A DNA stretch of 64,000 bases, taken from positions 1 through 64,000 of IMG/VR virus record IMGVR_UViG_3300047547_000041; one strand, written 5' to 3'. Position 1 is the stretch's first letter; the number at the start of each line of letters is the position of its first letter. The DNA comes from a virus. Shown here one piece after another: positions 2,445 to 49,694 of this stretch. The notes below the pieces were generated by a model. It did not search any database and was not told where the DNA came from. It saw only the letters and a program-made list of their open reading frames with translations. The position numbers were made by a program, and so were the translations under genes.

Positions 2445-3401
2445 TTATGCAAGTGCCAGAAGTTGTTCCAGTGCAGAATTCTTCAGAGAGTTGCCAACAC
2501 CGAACTCGGAATTGTTGAACTGGTGCGAAGCATCACGCTTGCCGGTACCATGGGTTGCCATTTCGGTCACAGCGTTCAGAACACCCCATTGGGTACCATA
2601 CGAAAAATCTGCGCCAGCACCATTCTTGTAAAAGTGCATCAGGGCATCAGTTTGACGCGAAACGGTCAGCTTGGTGGGGTCGATGTTCTTGGGGTTCACC
2701 AGTTTGTTAAAAAATTCAGCAGCGAAGTCATCAGTGACCTTCTTTTCTGCGAAACCCTTCAGATTGGTGATGAACGAATCCCACGACGAATCAATCAGAC
2801 CCAAATCAACCTTGAATTGCTTGGGGTCGAATGCGCTTGCATGGGTCTTGCGAACACTGCTACCTTGACCACGCAGTGCAACTTGCAAAGTGTTGTTGCA
2901 CACAGTGCGAGTCGATGTGAACTTTGCTTGAGTCGAAAGCGAACCATCAGCCGAAGTAACCAGCAGCAGTTGACCCTTGATTTCGTCACCGGGAACAATG
3001 AAAGCATTCTTGCCGATTTCGGCAGTGGCCCAAAAACGCTTACCGCCGAACAGGGTGCCAGCAGCAGACAGCTTCATTTTGTTGGTTTCCGTGAATTCAC
3101 GGAAAAATTCCAGAACTTCCTTGGGTTGCACAACGTGGTATTCTTCACTCACGATACCCAGCACATCGGTCGAGTCCGAACGGTACAGAACCTTGTTTTG
3201 GGTGTCGGTGATCAGACCACCGGCAGTTTGGAAACGAACATTCGATTCCATGATTTCCCAATCCATACCAGCAGCAGTTTGCCACTGTTCGATGGTTTGG
3301 TTTTCGGGCAGGTATTGACCCAAACCGTGCCAAACTTCCTTGCGGTCACCGAGTGCGGCGAATTCGATGAAACCATTCTTGCGTGCGGTCAGTTGGTGCA
3401 T
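2445..3401 (-). CDS. DUF932 / phage-plasmid-like protein, 318 aa
   Basis: The protein has the layout of the DUF932 (LGT_TIGR03299) family: an N-terminal AxxGxRKxxWHGLGQ-like segment, then VLGIVSEEYHVVQPKEVLEF, GGKRFWATAEIG, TSADGSLSTQAKFTSTRTVC with the CxNTL continuation, and a helical C-terminal half. The family is widespread on phages and plasmids and its biochemistry is not settled. The start at 3401 is preceded by GGAG. A strong near-consensus promoter lies 33 bp upstream. There is no in-frame TAG. Confidence 0.85.
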   Translation of the reverse strand: MHQLTARKNGFIEFAALGDRKEVWHGLGQYLPENQTIEQWQTAAGMDWEIMESNVRFQTAGGLITDTQNKVLYRSDSTDVLGIVSEEYHVVQPKEVLEFFREFTETNKMKLSAAGTLFGGKRFWATAEIGKNAFIVPGDEIKGQLLLVTSADGSLSTQAKFTSTRTVCNNTLQVALRGQGSSVRKTHASAFDPKQFKVDLGLIDSSWDSFITNLKGFAEKKVTDDFAAEFFNKLVNPKNIDPTKLTVSRQTDALMHFYKNGAGADFSYGTQWGVLNAVTEMATHGTGKRDASHQFNNSEFGVGNSLKNSALEQLLALA

Positions 3402-12080: not shown

Positions 12081-12357
12081 TTTGTGTTCCTATGATGTAA
12101 AAGTTAAACGTTTCCGACTCGACCGGTTGCGACAAGATCCGCCATGTGCATGTAGCGAACTTGGAAATCCCAAACACCCTTTCCACAATGCTACCATCAG
12201 ATTGACGGTATCGCACACTGTAATTCCACTTGTCGTTGCAAATAGGCCATGGAAACACGCACATGATGTGAACTTTGTTTCCACTTGTGGAAAACCATTC
12301 TTGTCCCTCATGGAATGCGGGGGAATCATGCTTGTGAAACTTGACTTGCTTGGGCAT
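12073..12357 (-). CDS. Hypothetical early protein, 94 aa
   Basis: Not recognised. It starts MPKQVKFHKHDSPAFHEGQE and is predicted beta-rich (WFSTSGNKVHIMCVFPW). I chose ATG 12357 because AAGGAAAATC precedes it and a spacer-hairpin promoter lies 34 bp upstream. It ends inside the next start. Confidence 0.55.
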   Translation of the reverse strand: MPKQVKFHKHDSPAFHEGQEWFSTSGNKVHIMCVFPWPICNDKWNYSVRYRQSDGSIVERVFGISKFATCTWRILSQPVESETFNFYIIGTQNV

Positions 12358-12390
12358 GATTTTCCTTAGTTGATTTGTTGCGATGTATGA

Positions 12391-12419
12391 ATTATGTCCC
12401 TTCGGGACCATCTTGTCAA
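12391..12419 (-). promoter_or_regulatory. Spacer-hairpin promoter TTGACA-N17-CATAAT (GTCCC stem)
   Basis: TTGACA (12419-12414) and CATAAT (12396-12391) with the spacer hairpin GTCCC-GAA-GGGAC. Both arms differ from the sister sites yet still pair, a covariation. It is followed by a shortened form of the common leader (TTCATACATCGCAACA). Confidence 0.75.
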
Positions 12420-12436
12420 TCACAAAGTTGTAACAG

Positions 12437-16112: not shown

Positions 16113-16149
16113 GATGAACTCGTTTGAAAACTGTGTTGCGATGGAATGA

Positions 16150-16178
16150 ATTATGGGGTATCAACATCATCATGTCAA
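16150..16178 (-). promoter_or_regulatory. TTGACA-N17-CATAAT promoter without spacer hairpin
   Basis: TTGACA (16178-16173) and CATAAT (16155-16150) on the minus strand, with the same leader as the hairpin promoters (TTCATTCCATCGCAACAC). The 17-base spacer is unstructured, so it serves as a natural contrast to the hairpin sites. Confidence 0.75.
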
Positions 16179-16211
16179 CACAGTTTTGAAAAATTTTTGA
16201 ACTGTTACATT

Positions 16212-17067: not shown

Positions 17068-17102
17068 GATGTTCACTTGAAAGTTGTGTTGCGATGGAAT
17101 GA

Positions 17103-17131
17103 ATTATGGCCCCGAAGGGCCATATTGTCAA
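17103..17131 (-). promoter_or_regulatory. Spacer-hairpin promoter TTGACA-N17-CATAAT
   Basis: TTGACA (17131-17126), CATAAT (17108-17103), spacer hairpin ATGGCCC-TTCG-GGGCCAT. The leader is identical to that at 3652-3687 all the way to the ATG. This copy and the 3688 copy differ in stem sequence only. Confidence 0.8.
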
Positions 17132-17146
17132 GCGATTTTTGAACTG

Positions 17147-25251: not shown

Positions 25252-25291
25252 TGGATACCTTTCATTGTATCGGTAATTTATCGGTGAATGA

Positions 25292-25320
25292 ATTATGGCC
25301 CCGAAGGGCCATCTTGTCAA
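25292..25320 (-). promoter_or_regulatory. Spacer-hairpin promoter TTGACA-N17-CATAAT
   Basis: TTGACA (25320-25315), CATAAT (25297-25292), hairpin ATGGCCC-TTCG-GGGCCAT in the spacer. The downstream leader is only partly like the others (TTCATTCACCG). It separates thyX from the membrane gene. Confidence 0.75.
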
Positions 25321-25332
25321 GCGACTTCGAAA

Positions 25333-26608: not shown

Positions 26609-26693
26609 TGGTACCCCCGGTCGGAATCGAACCGACACGCCTTTCGGCGGCGCTTTTAGAGAACGCTGTGTCTACCAATTTCACCACAGGGGC
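26609..26693 (-). tRNA. tRNA-Leu(CTA): amber-decoding tRNA
   Basis: An 85-nt class II tRNA on the minus strand. The acceptor is GCCCCTG/CGGGGGT with A73 and encoded CCA. The D-arm includes GGTAGACAC, typical of tRNA-Leu. The anticodon stem is GCGTT/AGCGC around the 7-base loop CTCTAAA, so positions 34-36 are CTA, reading UAG. The variable arm is CGCC-GAAA-GGCG. Body and length match the tRNA-Leu(CAA) at 27805-27889. A73 plus the long arm argue for leucylation, which needs experimental proof. Confidence 0.92.
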
Positions 26694-27804: not shown

Positions 27805-27889
27805 TGGTGCCCCGGGTCGGACTCGAACCGACACTCCTTTCGGAACCGGATTTTGAATCCGGTGCGTCTACCAATTTCACCACCGGGGC
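27805..27889 (-). tRNA. tRNA-Leu(CAA)
   Basis: An 85-nt class II tRNA. The acceptor is GCCCCGG/CCGGGGC with A73 and encoded CCA. The anticodon stem-loop is CCGGA-TTCAAAA-TCCGG, anticodon CAA. D-arm and T-arm (TGTCGGTTCGAGTCCGAC) are nearly identical to the amber tRNA at 26609, so the two are recent paralogues. Confidence 0.93.
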
Positions 27890-30776: not shown

Positions 30777-30811
30777 GATTTGTCTCGATGTGAAGTGTTG
30801 CGATGGAATGA

Positions 30812-30840
30812 ATTATGGCCCCGAAGGGCCATCTTGTCAA
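30812..30840 (-). promoter_or_regulatory. Spacer-hairpin promoter TTGACA-N17-CATAAT
   Basis: TTGACA (30840-30835), CATAAT (30817-30812) and the spacer hairpin ATGGCCC-TTCG-GGGCCAT. The leader begins TTCATTCCATCGCAACAC as at the sister sites. Confidence 0.8.
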
Positions 30841-30881
30841 CACCATTTTAGTGGTGTGGTCATTGTTGTCTTTTTACAACA

Positions 30882-42348: not shown

Positions 42349-42612
42349 TCAGTTAGCGAAAACGTTGTTAGAACCTGTTGAAACTGTGTGACCGCAATTG
42401 ACCGCATCACCTTGACGAACGACCCGAATGCCTTCAGCAAACACGTTTGGAGATGCTTCTACAATATTCAGTGGTTGCTCATGATTTGGGTGGTCATCAA
42501 CCTTGTCACCAAGTGTGGAAACTTTGGAACCGTTGACAAACACAGTGCTTGCCCCGGGTCCGATGATGACGCCACCATTCACATTGTCAACATTAACTCT
42601 GGCTACTTTCAT
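42349..42612 (-). CDS. PAAR-repeat spike-tip protein (gp5.4-like), 87 aa
   Basis: Sharpens the end of the gp5 needle. It has MKVARVNVDNVNGGVIIGPG, STVFVNGSKVSTLGDKVDDH and GIRVVRQGDAVNCGHTVSTG, the glycine-rich PAAR repeats with His and Cys for a bound metal. Two upstream ATGs (42624, 42615) are also possible. The start lies inside the gp55 gene end. Confidence 0.8.
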   Translation of the reverse strand: MKVARVNVDNVNGGVIIGPGASTVFVNGSKVSTLGDKVDDHPNHEQPLNIVEASPNVFAEGIRVVRQGDAVNCGHTVSTGSNNVFAN

Positions 42613-43144
42613 CATCACTTTCATAGAAGTCTTCGAGACTGCTATTTACTTTCGACTTGTTTTTCTTCTTACTGTCGCGCTTATTCTTGAGTCTGGTGTA
42701 TTTGTCCGAAAGCACTTCATTGATTTTGATGGCTTCGTTAATTTCGTCAACAACATCTGTATCACCTTCGATATTCAACGAATTGCCACTTGCATAAATC
42801 AGTTCCATCTTACCGAACTCTTCATTTTCTTCCTTTTTGATGAAGTCAACATATTCGCGCCATGCGGTTGTTGTGAAGTAGCCAAATGGATTAGGAGACT
42901 TTTCGGGATCGAACTTGTGGGCGACACTGAAACACTTCTAAATCGCTTCCCCCACCATGTCATCACGGAATGAATAACCGTTGAAGTTGTGACGGGAAGC
43001 TAGGTTCTCGCAAATGTCAATGATGGCCTTGCCAATGTCATTGGGCATCGTAGGGAAATCCGCAAAACTTTCCTTGGTCAGACACTCCGCACGGTAAGCC
43101 CTCAGACTTTCAACCAACTTTTGCTTATCAACATACATGCCCAT
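42593..43144 (-). CDS. 55: Late-transcription sigma factor gp55-like, 183 aa, one TAG
   Basis: Directs host RNA polymerase to late promoters together with the sliding clamp. Conserved parts: IGKAIIDICENLASRHNFNG, then DDMVGEAI[TAG]KCFSVAHKF, DPEKSPNPFGYFTTTAWREY and the C-terminal clamp-binding-type SSLEDFYESDDE. TAG at 42938-42940 sits in the polymerase-binding region at codon 69, so full-length sigma requires amber decoding. GGAG lies 8 bases before ATG 43144. Confidence 0.85.
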
Positions 43145-43175
43145 ATTACAACTCCAAAATCGTTTACATGACTCT

Positions 43176-43187
43176 AGTGTAACACAA
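43176..43187 (-). promoter_or_regulatory. Extended -10 GTGTTACACT before gp55
   Basis: Minus-strand TTGTGTTACACT ends about 30 bases before the gp55 ATG. It fits GTGnTAnAnT. The -35 region is T-rich without a clear box. Confidence 0.45.
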
Positions 43188-43345
43188 AAACAACAAATCT
43201 ATCAGTCTAACATCAAAAATTGTTGGTTTTAGTCAACACCCCATCAAACTGTATGATTTGCGACAATCTAGTGTTGTTTTTATGCAACTATGTTAGGGAA
43301 AACCCTTAGAACTTAGGGTAAATCAGTAGTGAGAAGTGTCAAAAA

Positions 43346-43357
43346 GTGTGGTACAAT
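43346..43357 (+). promoter_or_regulatory. Plus-strand extended -10 GTGTGGTACAAT
   Basis: GTGTGG-TACAAT on the plus strand is the same core as the tRNA and early promoters. The hairpin-rich RNA region starts about 45 bases downstream. GTGAGA 17 bases upstream is a poor -35. Confidence 0.5.
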
Positions 43358-43401
43358 AAAAGTGATTGTTTACCAGCACTAAACAATAGTACCATATAAC
43401 A

Positions 43402-43683
43402 AGCGATGCCTTGCATCGCTGTCTTGCCAGAAAGTACAACGTACTTTCGCAAGACCAAACGTTCTATAGAACGTTGTTAAGAAAATTGTTATAACATAGT
43501 TTTGAACGAATTTCCAAACGGTTCAAAACTATGTAAAGGTTGAGAACGTTACAGATGTGGTTATCGACCGAAAGTGTGTCTTGTGAAAGACCATGTTTGA
43601 TGGCGATACTGTAAAGGTTTCAAACCTACTTCTGCTCATTCAGTCGCATACTGCGTATGCTTTGTGAATGAGAGGCTTCGCCT
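43402..43683 (+). ncRNA. Hairpin-rich non-coding region in the divergent intergenic space
   Basis: No gene fits the 587 bases from 43145 to 43731. Consecutive perfect stems occur: AGCGATGC/GCATCGCT (43402-43420); GTCTTGC...GCAAGAC enclosing GAAAGTAC/GTACTTTC (43421-43455); palindrome AACGTTCTATAGAACGTT (43458-43475); 14-bp ACATAGTTTTGAAC/GTTCAAAACTATGT (43494-43534); AGGTTT/AAACCT; CTCATTCA/TGAATGAG enclosing GCATAC/GTATGC (43635-43672); AGGC-TTC-GCCT (43673-43683). It could be a structured RNA or leader, or a replication origin. Confidence 0.55.
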
Positions 43684-43700
43684 GTATATCTTGAGTGATA

Positions 43701-43707
43701 CTAAATA
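43701..43707 (+). promoter_or_regulatory. CTAAATA late-type promoter for the fibre operon
   Basis: CTAAATA lies 25 bases before the first fibre gene start (43732). It repeats the box seen at 24449, 24466 and 52986, and resembles T4 TATAAATA. It directly follows the last hairpin. Confidence 0.5.
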
Positions 43708-43731
43708 GAAGTCATCTAATGATCTATTGCT

Positions 43732-44463
43732 ATGGAAAACAAACTCTCAGAACTTTCAAAACTGCTTGAAAAAGGTGTTCAAGCAAAAAAGCAACGTTTG
43801 CAAAACAGTGAGGACGCACTTACTGAAATGTTTCGCATTGTTGCTGAAGGAAAGAAAGAGAAGACTCCAAAAGAAAAACTCAAAGAGGTTTCGACCCAAC
43901 TTGACGACATTGTTGAACGTGCCGTAGAACTTGAAGAGAAGTATTCCAGAATCGAACAGTTTGAGAAGAAAACCAATAGTGATCTTTCAAACATCAAAGA
44001 CCAACAAGAAAAGAAGTTTCTCAATCTTTACAACGGTCTAAAACAAGAAATTGAAGGACTGCGAAAGGCAGTTCAGGAAACCACAAATCAAATCTCATTT
44101 GGAGGTGGTGGCGGCGGTGCCGCAACCCTTAGAGATTTGTACGATATTGACTTTTCGACACTTTCACCGGATTACGTTCTAAGCTATGATGGAATGTCGG
44201 GTGCATTTGTTTTCAGAGAAGTTACTGCAACTGGTGGAACATCGGGAAATCAGATTCGTAAATATGAGACTGATTTGAGTGGAACCAATGTAACTATTCC
44301 TGTCGAATCTCATAGTTTTCAAACTTCTGTTGTCGAAGCAACTTTTGTTCGATCCAATAGAAAGGTTGATGTGTACTGGTTTTATGACCCGGTAACCAAA
44401 AACTTCATCATAGAATCTAACGTTGACCTCACAGGGGTCAAACTCACAATCAACGGATATTGA
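43732..44463 (+). CDS. Coiled-coil structural/fibre protein, 243 aa
   Basis: Residues 1-125 are a long coiled coil (KEKLKEVSTQLDDIVERAVE ... KKFLNLYNGLKQEIEGLRKA). Then comes a glycine run (GGGGGGAA), a spacer and a C-terminal beta domain ending NVDLTGVKLTINGY. That end resembles the end of the next protein (VALTGVKIFATGF), so a shared fibre-tip or trimerisation domain is likely. First gene of the late plus-strand operon. No TAG. Confidence 0.65.
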   Translation: MENKLSELSKLLEKGVQAKKQRLQNSEDALTEMFRIVAEGKKEKTPKEKLKEVSTQLDDIVERAVELEEKYSRIEQFEKKTNSDLSNIKDQQEKKFLNLYNGLKQEIEGLRKAVQETTNQISFGGGGGGAATLRDLYDIDFSTLSPDYVLSYDGMSGAFVFREVTATGGTSGNQIRKYETDLSGTNVTIPVESHSFQTSVVEATFVRSNRKVDVYWFYDPVTKNFIIESNVDLTGVKLTINGY

Positions 44464-47846: not shown

Positions 47847-49694
47847 ATGTTGCAAATTAAGAATGCGCAAGGTCAACTTTCAAATTTCACGGAAGAAGAA
47901 AAACGACAGTTTACCTTTGACCTTGGCGCAATGCGTTCTGCCAATGGTAGGGTACCTGATGACAACGGTGATGTTGTTGTTGTTTGTGGAACTTTGATTT
48001 TTGTTCCGCCATCGGGTGATACATCAGGTGATACCGATACTGCCGCAATCAAGGCCGCAATTGCACAAGCCGCAAATACCTCTAAGGGTATCGGTTTCAT
48101 CGAAGGTGATTACTACTGGAATGACACGGTTGATATCACTGATGGTTACCGCACACAATTTGAATCGGTTAGAACCGGTTTGAACCCTCTTCCTGCATCG
48201 GTTATCATTCCTCCGAAACTTGTTGGTGCTGGCCTGTATAGAACTCGTCACCGAATGGTTGTGAGTGGCAAGCCCATGTTGCGGTACTACGGTACCGCAA
48301 ACGGTGTTCAAATGCAGTCGCCATTCATTTTCGGTATGAACTTCCATGGTCCCGGGTTCAATACCGGCAACTTCATGACTTCGGCAATTCAGTTTGGTGG
48401 TGTTTCGACAACCTACAAAAACATCACTGCTGACCCGCAATTGACCCAAGTTGGTTTCTTTGATTTCAACACTTGTGTTCGTCATGATGACACAACCGGT
48501 GCCACATACGACAAATGTTTCTTCCAACGATTCCTGTTTGGTGTTGACCGTGGATACAATTGTGACATTTTCAAATTTCACTCATGTGATTTTGGTGATC
48601 AATCGCTGAACAGTAATTTCACATGCACGATCACAAACAATTCAACAACAATCACCACAACAGGTAATCAATTCAATGATGTTCCAAGTGGTGCATATGT
48701 TGCTGGTAATGGTATTCCGAACGGAACAACGATCACGGTCAATTCTGGAAACTCTGCAACGCTTAGTAACCCAGCAACATTGACTGGCACAACCAAACTT
48801 TATGCATTTTTGGGTGTTGCTGTTGTTGATAGTGGTACTGGTTATGGTACAGGTTGGGTTCCACCTTTCGGTGAAAATGGTAGTGGCAACATTTTGGTGT
48901 TTGATAGCTGCTGGTTCTTGCGTATCAAGATGGTTCTTGGCGCTTACGCCCCATCATCTTCTGCAATTCGTTTTACAAACAGTTACACAGAATTGTTGTG
49001 GAAAATGGCAGAACTCGGTTTGCCGGGCGATGCTACTTGCCCTTCGATGTTCACTGTTGAGAATCATCATTTCTCGCAAACCGAATCTTTCATGGTCAAC
49101 GGTGTTGTTGACGTTCGTTCATCGGGTTCAACAAATGGCGTTGTCATGAAATGGACGGATAACCGTTCAGATAGTTTGTCTCCGAATGCTTCGCAAGTTC
49201 CGTGGGTGTTTGCGCCAAATGCATACAACAGTACCGCAGCATTCTTGTGGGATCGTAACATTCTGGCTACAAATGATGGTATTCCAACTGTTAACGTTGC
49301 AGGTTCTTCAGCAACTATTCCCGACAAGACCCGATATGTTGTTGGTACCAATAAGGGTGTTCAATCTGGTGGTTTTGTTAGAAATTACAACGCAAGTGCT
49401 GGCACATTGATTTGGGACTATGGTGGTGAAGACCAAGTTCATGTCGATCTTAACGCAAACGTCACAATTAACGATCATGGTAGCCAAAACCCACCAAAGG
49501 GTAGAGAATTGACTTTCTTGGTCACTGACAGTGGTGCTGGTGGTAAGGTTATTACCTTCGGTAGCAAATACTTGAATAGTTCTGGCGCTGCTATTGGAGC
49601 GTTTACCACATCGGTTGCTGGCAAAACCGCAGTCTTCAAGTTCATTTGGGATGGCAACAACTATCGCCAACTCAACACAACTCAGTGGGCTTAA
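47847..49694 (+). CDS. Second beta-helix tailspike, 615 aa
   Basis: Begins MLQIKNAQGQLSNFTEEEKR, closely similar to the N terminus of the 191-aa protein at 50176 (MLKIKNSSGQWVDFTPAQKT). That points to a shared attachment module. A beta-helix follows (IGFIEGDYYWNDTVDITDGY, FDSCWFLRIKMVLGAYAPSS). The C-terminal end has a trimeric-fibre motif region (ANVTINDHGSQNPPKGRELT). No TAG. Confidence 0.72.
   Translation: MLQIKNAQGQLSNFTEEEKRQFTFDLGAMRSANGRVPDDNGDVVVVCGTLIFVPPSGDTSGDTDTAAIKAAIAQAANTSKGIGFIEGDYYWNDTVDITDGYRTQFESVRTGLNPLPASVIIPPKLVGAGLYRTRHRMVVSGKPMLRYYGTANGVQMQSPFIFGMNFHGPGFNTGNFMTSAIQFGGVSTTYKNITADPQLTQVGFFDFNTCVRHDDTTGATYDKCFFQRFLFGVDRGYNCDIFKFHSCDFGDQSLNSNFTCTITNNSTTITTTGNQFNDVPSGAYVAGNGIPNGTTITVNSGNSATLSNPATLTGTTKLYAFLGVAVVDSGTGYGTGWVPPFGENGSGNILVFDSCWFLRIKMVLGAYAPSSSAIRFTNSYTELLWKMAELGLPGDATCPSMFTVENHHFSQTESFMVNGVVDVRSSGSTNGVVMKWTDNRSDSLSPNASQVPWVFAPNAYNSTAAFLWDRNILATNDGIPTVNVAGSSATIPDKTRYVVGTNKGVQSGGFVRNYNASAGTLIWDYGGEDQVHVDLNANVTINDHGSQNPPKGRELTFLVTDSGAGGKVITFGSKYLNSSGAAIGAFTTSVAGKTAVFKFIWDGNNYRQLNTTQWA

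Follow-up and report, generated by a model that had tools for sequence, protein, structure and literature searches.

Two copies of a conserved hairpin chain in a T4-like phage genome point to a putative new structured RNA

The stretch of DNA analyzed here (the window, 64,000 bases) comprises bases 1–64000 of the 144,840-bp record of an uncultured virus, IMGVR_UViG_3300047547_000041. Judged from its genes for gp55, UvsY, the helicase, gp23, gp25, and gp6, the virus is a T4-like phage, and the closest relatives of its capsid protein are 52–56% identical. The locus of interest is a gap of 587 bases (43145–43731) that is free of genes, as a preliminary description of the DNA had proposed. On one side, the gap is flanked by the divergently oriented gene of the late sigma factor gp55 (42593–43144, minus strand; phrog_234, E 3.7e-39), and on the other side by a late operon on the plus strand. 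The first gene of this presumed fibre operon (43732–44463, plus strand) encodes a 243-aa protein with a weak PHROG match and unknown function, while a pectate-lyase-like domain was found in the fourth gene.

The gp55 gene contains one in-frame TAG codon, and such codons occur in 68 of the 200 called genes (100 codons). TAG is probably read as leucine and not as glutamine, as suggested by two observations. The residues that relatives carry opposite TAG (L 17, F 6, E 5, Y 5, M 4, T 4, V 4, Q 3, I 2, and others) are best fitted by leucine under BLOSUM62, and the CUA tRNA (window 26609–26693, minus strand) has a long variable arm and closely resembles the phage tRNA-Leu(CAA) at 27805–27889.

Inside the gap, an element that we term copy A extends from 43341 to 43690 on the plus strand. 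It opens with the promoter block AAAAAGTGTGGTACAATAAAAGTGAT (43341–43366), which includes the extended −10 sequence TGTGGTACAAT at 43347–43357 and a predicted start near 43364, and continues with eight hairpins on the same strand. The 5′-terminal hairpin H1 (43365–43387) has 8 bp and the loop CCAGCAC, H2 (43402–43420) is a perfect 8-bp hairpin with the loop CTT, and H3 (43421–43455) is a nested 7+8-bp hairpin. These are followed by the perfect 18-base palindrome AACGTTCTATAGAACGTT (H4, 43458–43475), a perfect 14-bp hairpin with a loop of 13 bases (H5, 43494–43534; arms at 43494–43507 and 43521–43534), and the 5-bp hairpin GTCTT-GTGA-AAGAC, which precedes a conserved CATG (H6, 43578–43591). In copy A only, a longer stem at 43537–43627 may enclose H6. 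The chain closes with the 8+6-bp hairpin H7 (43635–43672) and the 4-bp hairpin H8, AGGC-TTC-GCCT (43673–43683), and a late-type promoter box, CTAAATA, stands at 43701–43707. The preliminary description had placed seven stem-loops at 43402–43683, including the 14-bp stem, the nested 7+8-bp stem, and the palindrome, with an extended −10 promoter before them and a CTAAATA box after. All of these were recovered in place, but the extent had been drawn too narrowly, since H1 lies just to the left and a second copy is found elsewhere in the genome.

The stem-loops are far beyond chance and form part of a larger unit. The RNA fold of copy A (43364–43690) reached a z-score of −9.8 and that of the second copy (copy B) −6.0, while the remainder of the gap (43150–43363) scored +0.23. 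Perfect hairpins in copy A total 51 bp in six hairpins, compared with a maximum of 33 bp in 1000 dinucleotide shuffles, and only copy B comes close elsewhere in the genome, with 48 bp. When the energy excess was ranked in 120-base windows, copy A ranked first and copy B fifth within the initial 83 kb; equally high or stronger windows elsewhere in the genome are mostly located within genes or consist of single stems. Three perfect 18-base palindromes occur in 144 kb, two of which are H4 of copy A and 74387–74404 in copy B, and a single palindrome, of 20 bases, is longer. The remaining palindromes of at least 18 bases are TTTCCGTGAATTCACGGAAA at window 3086–3105 and CATCTTCCATGGAAGATG at genome 117045–117062.

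Copy B is located at 74294–74622 of the same 144.8-kb record, outside the window, after the terminator of the gp23 capsid gene and before gp25. A search of the whole record returned two stretches of 92–94% identity (74294–74340 and 74570–74621), which are the two ends of copy B and keep the order and spacing of copy A; no third copy was found in the genome. Both copies share the same order, namely, an extended −10 promoter, H1 at the predicted start, a row of perfect hairpins, a 52-base 3′ module, an NTAAATA box (GTAAATA in copy B, at the same place), and a late operon. The near-invariant parts are the promoter block AAAAAGTGTGRTACAATAAAAGTGAT (relative to AAAAAGTGTGGTACAATAAAAGTGAT, one base differs in the block at 74294 in copy B), the H1 loop CCWGCAC, and the 52-base H7/H8 module. 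Sequence conservation is poor in the middle, where copy B nonetheless carries hairpins at the positions of H2, H3, H5, and H6; in all, it has seven hairpins compared with the eight of copy A.

Pair-by-pair comparison of the copies revealed that the stems are maintained through matched base changes. Copy B keeps the stem of H1 with one pair changed on both sides, whereas changes on both sides affect five of the six compared pairs in H2, seven of 11 in H3, and nine of 14 in H5, which in copy B has 15 bp and a loop of 14 bases. The 36 core bases of H7 (43636–43671) are identical, while its outermost pair is C-G in copy A and A-T in copy B, and the outer pair of H8 is A-T in copy A and C-G in copy B. 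The 62 base pairs compared comprise 32 unchanged pairs, 29 with changes on both sides, and one with a change on one side, and none is broken; this covariation is that of two sequences only, copies A and B of one genome, because a homologue outside the genome was not found. The matched changes point to a new structured RNA, with a putative function, rather than to chance palindromes. The open reading frames of the two copies do not correspond and no reading frame is shared, and a coding interpretation was consequently dropped.

In both copies, the −10 sequence with its TG extension places the predicted start (approximately +1) at the first base of H1. Of the ten TGGTAYAAT sites in the genome, six lie in the tRNA region (26.3–28.8 kb), where the motif directly precedes the CUA tRNA and the Thr tRNA and also stands before tRNA-Leu. 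In intergenic DNA of the plus strand, TGNTAYAAT is found only in copies A and B, both of which directly precede late operons, away from the early and tRNA genes. The early protein genes carry a different, PeSL-like promoter of the form TTGACA-spacer-CATAAT with a hairpin in the spacer. Members of this intergenic early promoter family, most of them with the terminator-like spacer hairpin GGCCCTTCGGGGCC, were located in the window at 12330–12436, 16113–16211, 17068–17146, 25252–25332, and 30777–30881, and in the genome at 100.8, 101.3, 105.8, 110.4, 122.0, and 123.8 kb; the family fits the PeSL cassette idea.

The genome thus holds PeSL-like cassettes, and copies A and B are themselves promoter-plus-stem-loop copies in intergenic DNA, so that the element might be a mobile cassette like the PeSLs of T4-type phages, disseminated by recombination and devoid of an RNA function of its own. 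We consider this very improbable. PeSL cassettes of T4-type phages (Arbiol 2010, Comeau 2014; cited in PMC4503421) likewise consist of repeated intergenic DNA that joins an early promoter to a stem-loop. However, the PeSL-like copies here, about ten in number, carry their hairpin inside the −35/−10 spacer of TTGACA promoters, whereas copies A and B have another promoter, with no hairpin in its spacer, and eight or seven hairpins located downstream, in the predicted transcript. Within the element, no sequence common to the PeSL-like copies was found, and only a 14-base terminator stem outside it is shared with them. Furthermore, the paired changes imply selection on structure, which argues against a function-free cassette.

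In our best reading, copies A and B constitute a paralogous gene pair that encodes a structured non-coding RNA, expressed early by the host polymerase, a proposal to which we assign an even chance. The duplication, the conserved promoter, the conserved order of hairpins, the paired base changes, and the lack of a shared open reading frame can be read directly from the DNA; we infer from them the transcription, its timing, the 3′ end, the stability of the RNA, and its partner. The unit would span about 310–330 bases, with predicted RNAs of about 327 nt for copy A, at 43364–43690, and 308 nt for copy B, at 74315–74622. Early in infection, the host sigma70 RNA polymerase would start at the tRNA-type extended −10 promoter, and the transcript would open with H1, fold as a hairpin chain, and end after H7/H8, probably by processing given the lack of a U-tract terminator. 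The near-invariant ends (the H1 loop, the H7/H8 module, and the single-strand motifs GAACGTTAC and AGACCATG) might bind a partner, while the middle hairpins would act through their shape alone. At a later stage, the late operon would be transcribed in a gp55-dependent manner from the NTAAATA box just past the RNA, such that the early and late programmes would share one site.

In support of such RNA genes, the element combines its own promoter and the absence of a coding frame with a conserved structure bearing compensatory changes, the latter seen in two copies only. The placement of the promoter, its tRNA type, and the stronger folding of the plus strand compared with the minus strand (z-scores of −9.05 and −7.8 for copy A, the former over 43380–43740, and −5.3 and −4.5 for copy B) were also counted in favor. 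Of the preliminary suggestion of an abundant structured RNA, the structured transcript accordingly gained ground, through the paralogue with its paired changes, the start at H1, and the promoter type of the tRNA cluster. Counted against it were the absence of a terminator, the scarcity of G-U pairs, the strong fold of the minus strand, and the location of both copies before late operons. A defined 3′ end is lacking in that no intrinsic terminator was found after H8, and an independent RNA would therefore need processing.

The same lack of a terminator between the element and the operon is what would be expected of a cis-acting leader, in which the hairpin chain governs read-through of the early transcript into the late operon. 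Several modes can be envisaged, for example, antitermination like that of the HK022 put RNA, an early translation block as in T4 genes e and soc, or insulation until late transcription starts inside. Each copy directly precedes a late operon, in the same orientation, and has a late promoter at its 3′ edge, and in a longer copy A transcript CAATAG (43384–43389) would pair with CTATTG just before the start codon. This pairing is matched in copy B by a weak 4 bp only, the element is far longer than put sites, and a late mRNA begun at NTAAATA would be without the element. NTAAATA itself occurs 17 times on the late (plus) strand and three times on the other strand, and eight of the 17 late-strand sites precede the start of a late-region gene by at most 60 bases. 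The long regulatory leader of the preliminary description, which the downstream late operon and the missing terminator favor, is somewhat unlikely in our estimation.

The stems are nearly all Watson–Crick, with one G-U pair in about 134 stem pairs, a share that is unusually low for an RNA and compatible with a strand-symmetric constraint on DNA, which keeps a DNA-level reading alive. The element could thus be a transcript-primed origin of the T4 oriF/oriG or ColE1 kind, or its palindromes could provide replication or recombination proteins with single-stranded or cruciform DNA; we judge this to be unlikely. Both strands fold strongly, also when folded as DNA, and H7/H8 form C-GNA-G triloops on the minus strand. 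Moreover, active T4 origins tend toward transcription divergences and late regions (PMC3016281), and copy A likewise presents an early-type, host-type −10 promoter isolated in the late region at a divergence. T4 R-loop origins, however, require no specific sequence (PMC3016281), whereas copies A and B are sequence-specific.

Further comparison with T4 gave little support to the replication origin suggested earlier. T4 oriF and oriG resemble the element in being two per genome and in having an early or middle promoter that stands alone within late DNA. Nevertheless, oriF is found at uvsY, and oriG, which has an antisense primer RNA, within gene 34, so that neither position matches and synteny was rejected on the T4 record. 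Their transcripts have little mutual sequence likeness and fold far more weakly (z-scores of −0.6 and −3.2), without forming hairpin chains. Copies A and B are therefore neither positional nor structural equivalents of these origins. The GC-skew change near 43 kb that had been proposed as a check is real, but it follows from the switch of coding strand, with the sense-oriented third-position skew similar on both sides, and an origin signal was rejected on this basis. A retron or DGR was also rejected, as no reverse transcriptase was found.

Searches for homologues of the two copies returned none by blastn in phages, none by pattern in bacterial genomes, and none beside the protein neighbours gp55, the first fibre gene, and gp6. 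Pattern searches in IMG/VR likewise gave none, the few matches being read as chance (L090 and L103–L106 apparently within genes, L089 without the element). The covariance search in related phages that had been called for found none in 41 related records, a weak negative since the model was derived from two sequences and covered the 3′ module only. The strong structures that relatives show behind their capsid gene were rejected as counterparts, being a known glutamine riboswitch region and small ORFs: in seven marine T4-like relatives (L015, L018, L020, L046, L047, L053, and L054), the riboswitch (RF01739) and then a 50–60-aa ORF lie downstream of gp23.

Hairpin clusters elsewhere mostly overlap ORFs, with the exception of two tandem structured units in the related phage G021 (z-scores of −5.6 and −7.8; IMGVR_UViG_3300035661_000043, 48550–48946, or L129:8550–8946), located upstream of a tRNA array. 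Each unit has its own TGTGTTATAATA promoter, which in this phage also stands before small ORFs, a 5′ hairpin in which the loop GATMGG is conserved, and a long stem that carries paired changes. As judged from the absence of sequence kinship, the G021 units are analogous and non-homologous to copies A and B, and this parallel strengthens our belief in the latter as RNA genes. A bolder and rather unlikely extension would be a new multi-copy class of phage RNA, defined by a promoter, a fixed-loop 5′ hairpin, and a shape-conserved chain, whose members would mark late operons or prime replication in T4-like phages, with lineages such as that of G021 carrying their own versions. Structured phage RNAs have mostly been found only with many homologues, whereas here two copies in one genome supply paired-change evidence beyond the reach of searches for relatives. 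If transcribed, the element would yield a large phage RNA linked to the early as well as the late transcription programme of a T4-like phage and independently paralleled in a relative. It also offers a concrete test of whether such phages control late operons or start replication by RNA elements.

Among known RNAs, Rfam covariance models scored both copies below the gathering threshold, and no family was assigned. The glutamine riboswitch of the marine relatives is likewise structured and fills the corresponding position behind the capsid gene, but it is absent here and has no similarity to copies A and B. GOLLD and ROOL are also large structured RNAs carried by phages; in comparison, copies A and B have no Rfam match, are shorter, and form a plain row of perfect hairpins. 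The put antiterminator RNAs of HK022 are two paralogous hairpin RNAs at the extreme 5′ end of transcripts from host-type promoters, each of about 65–70 nt with two hairpins. Copies A and B would resemble them as paralogous 5′ hairpin RNAs, but would be about 310–330 nt long with at least seven hairpins.
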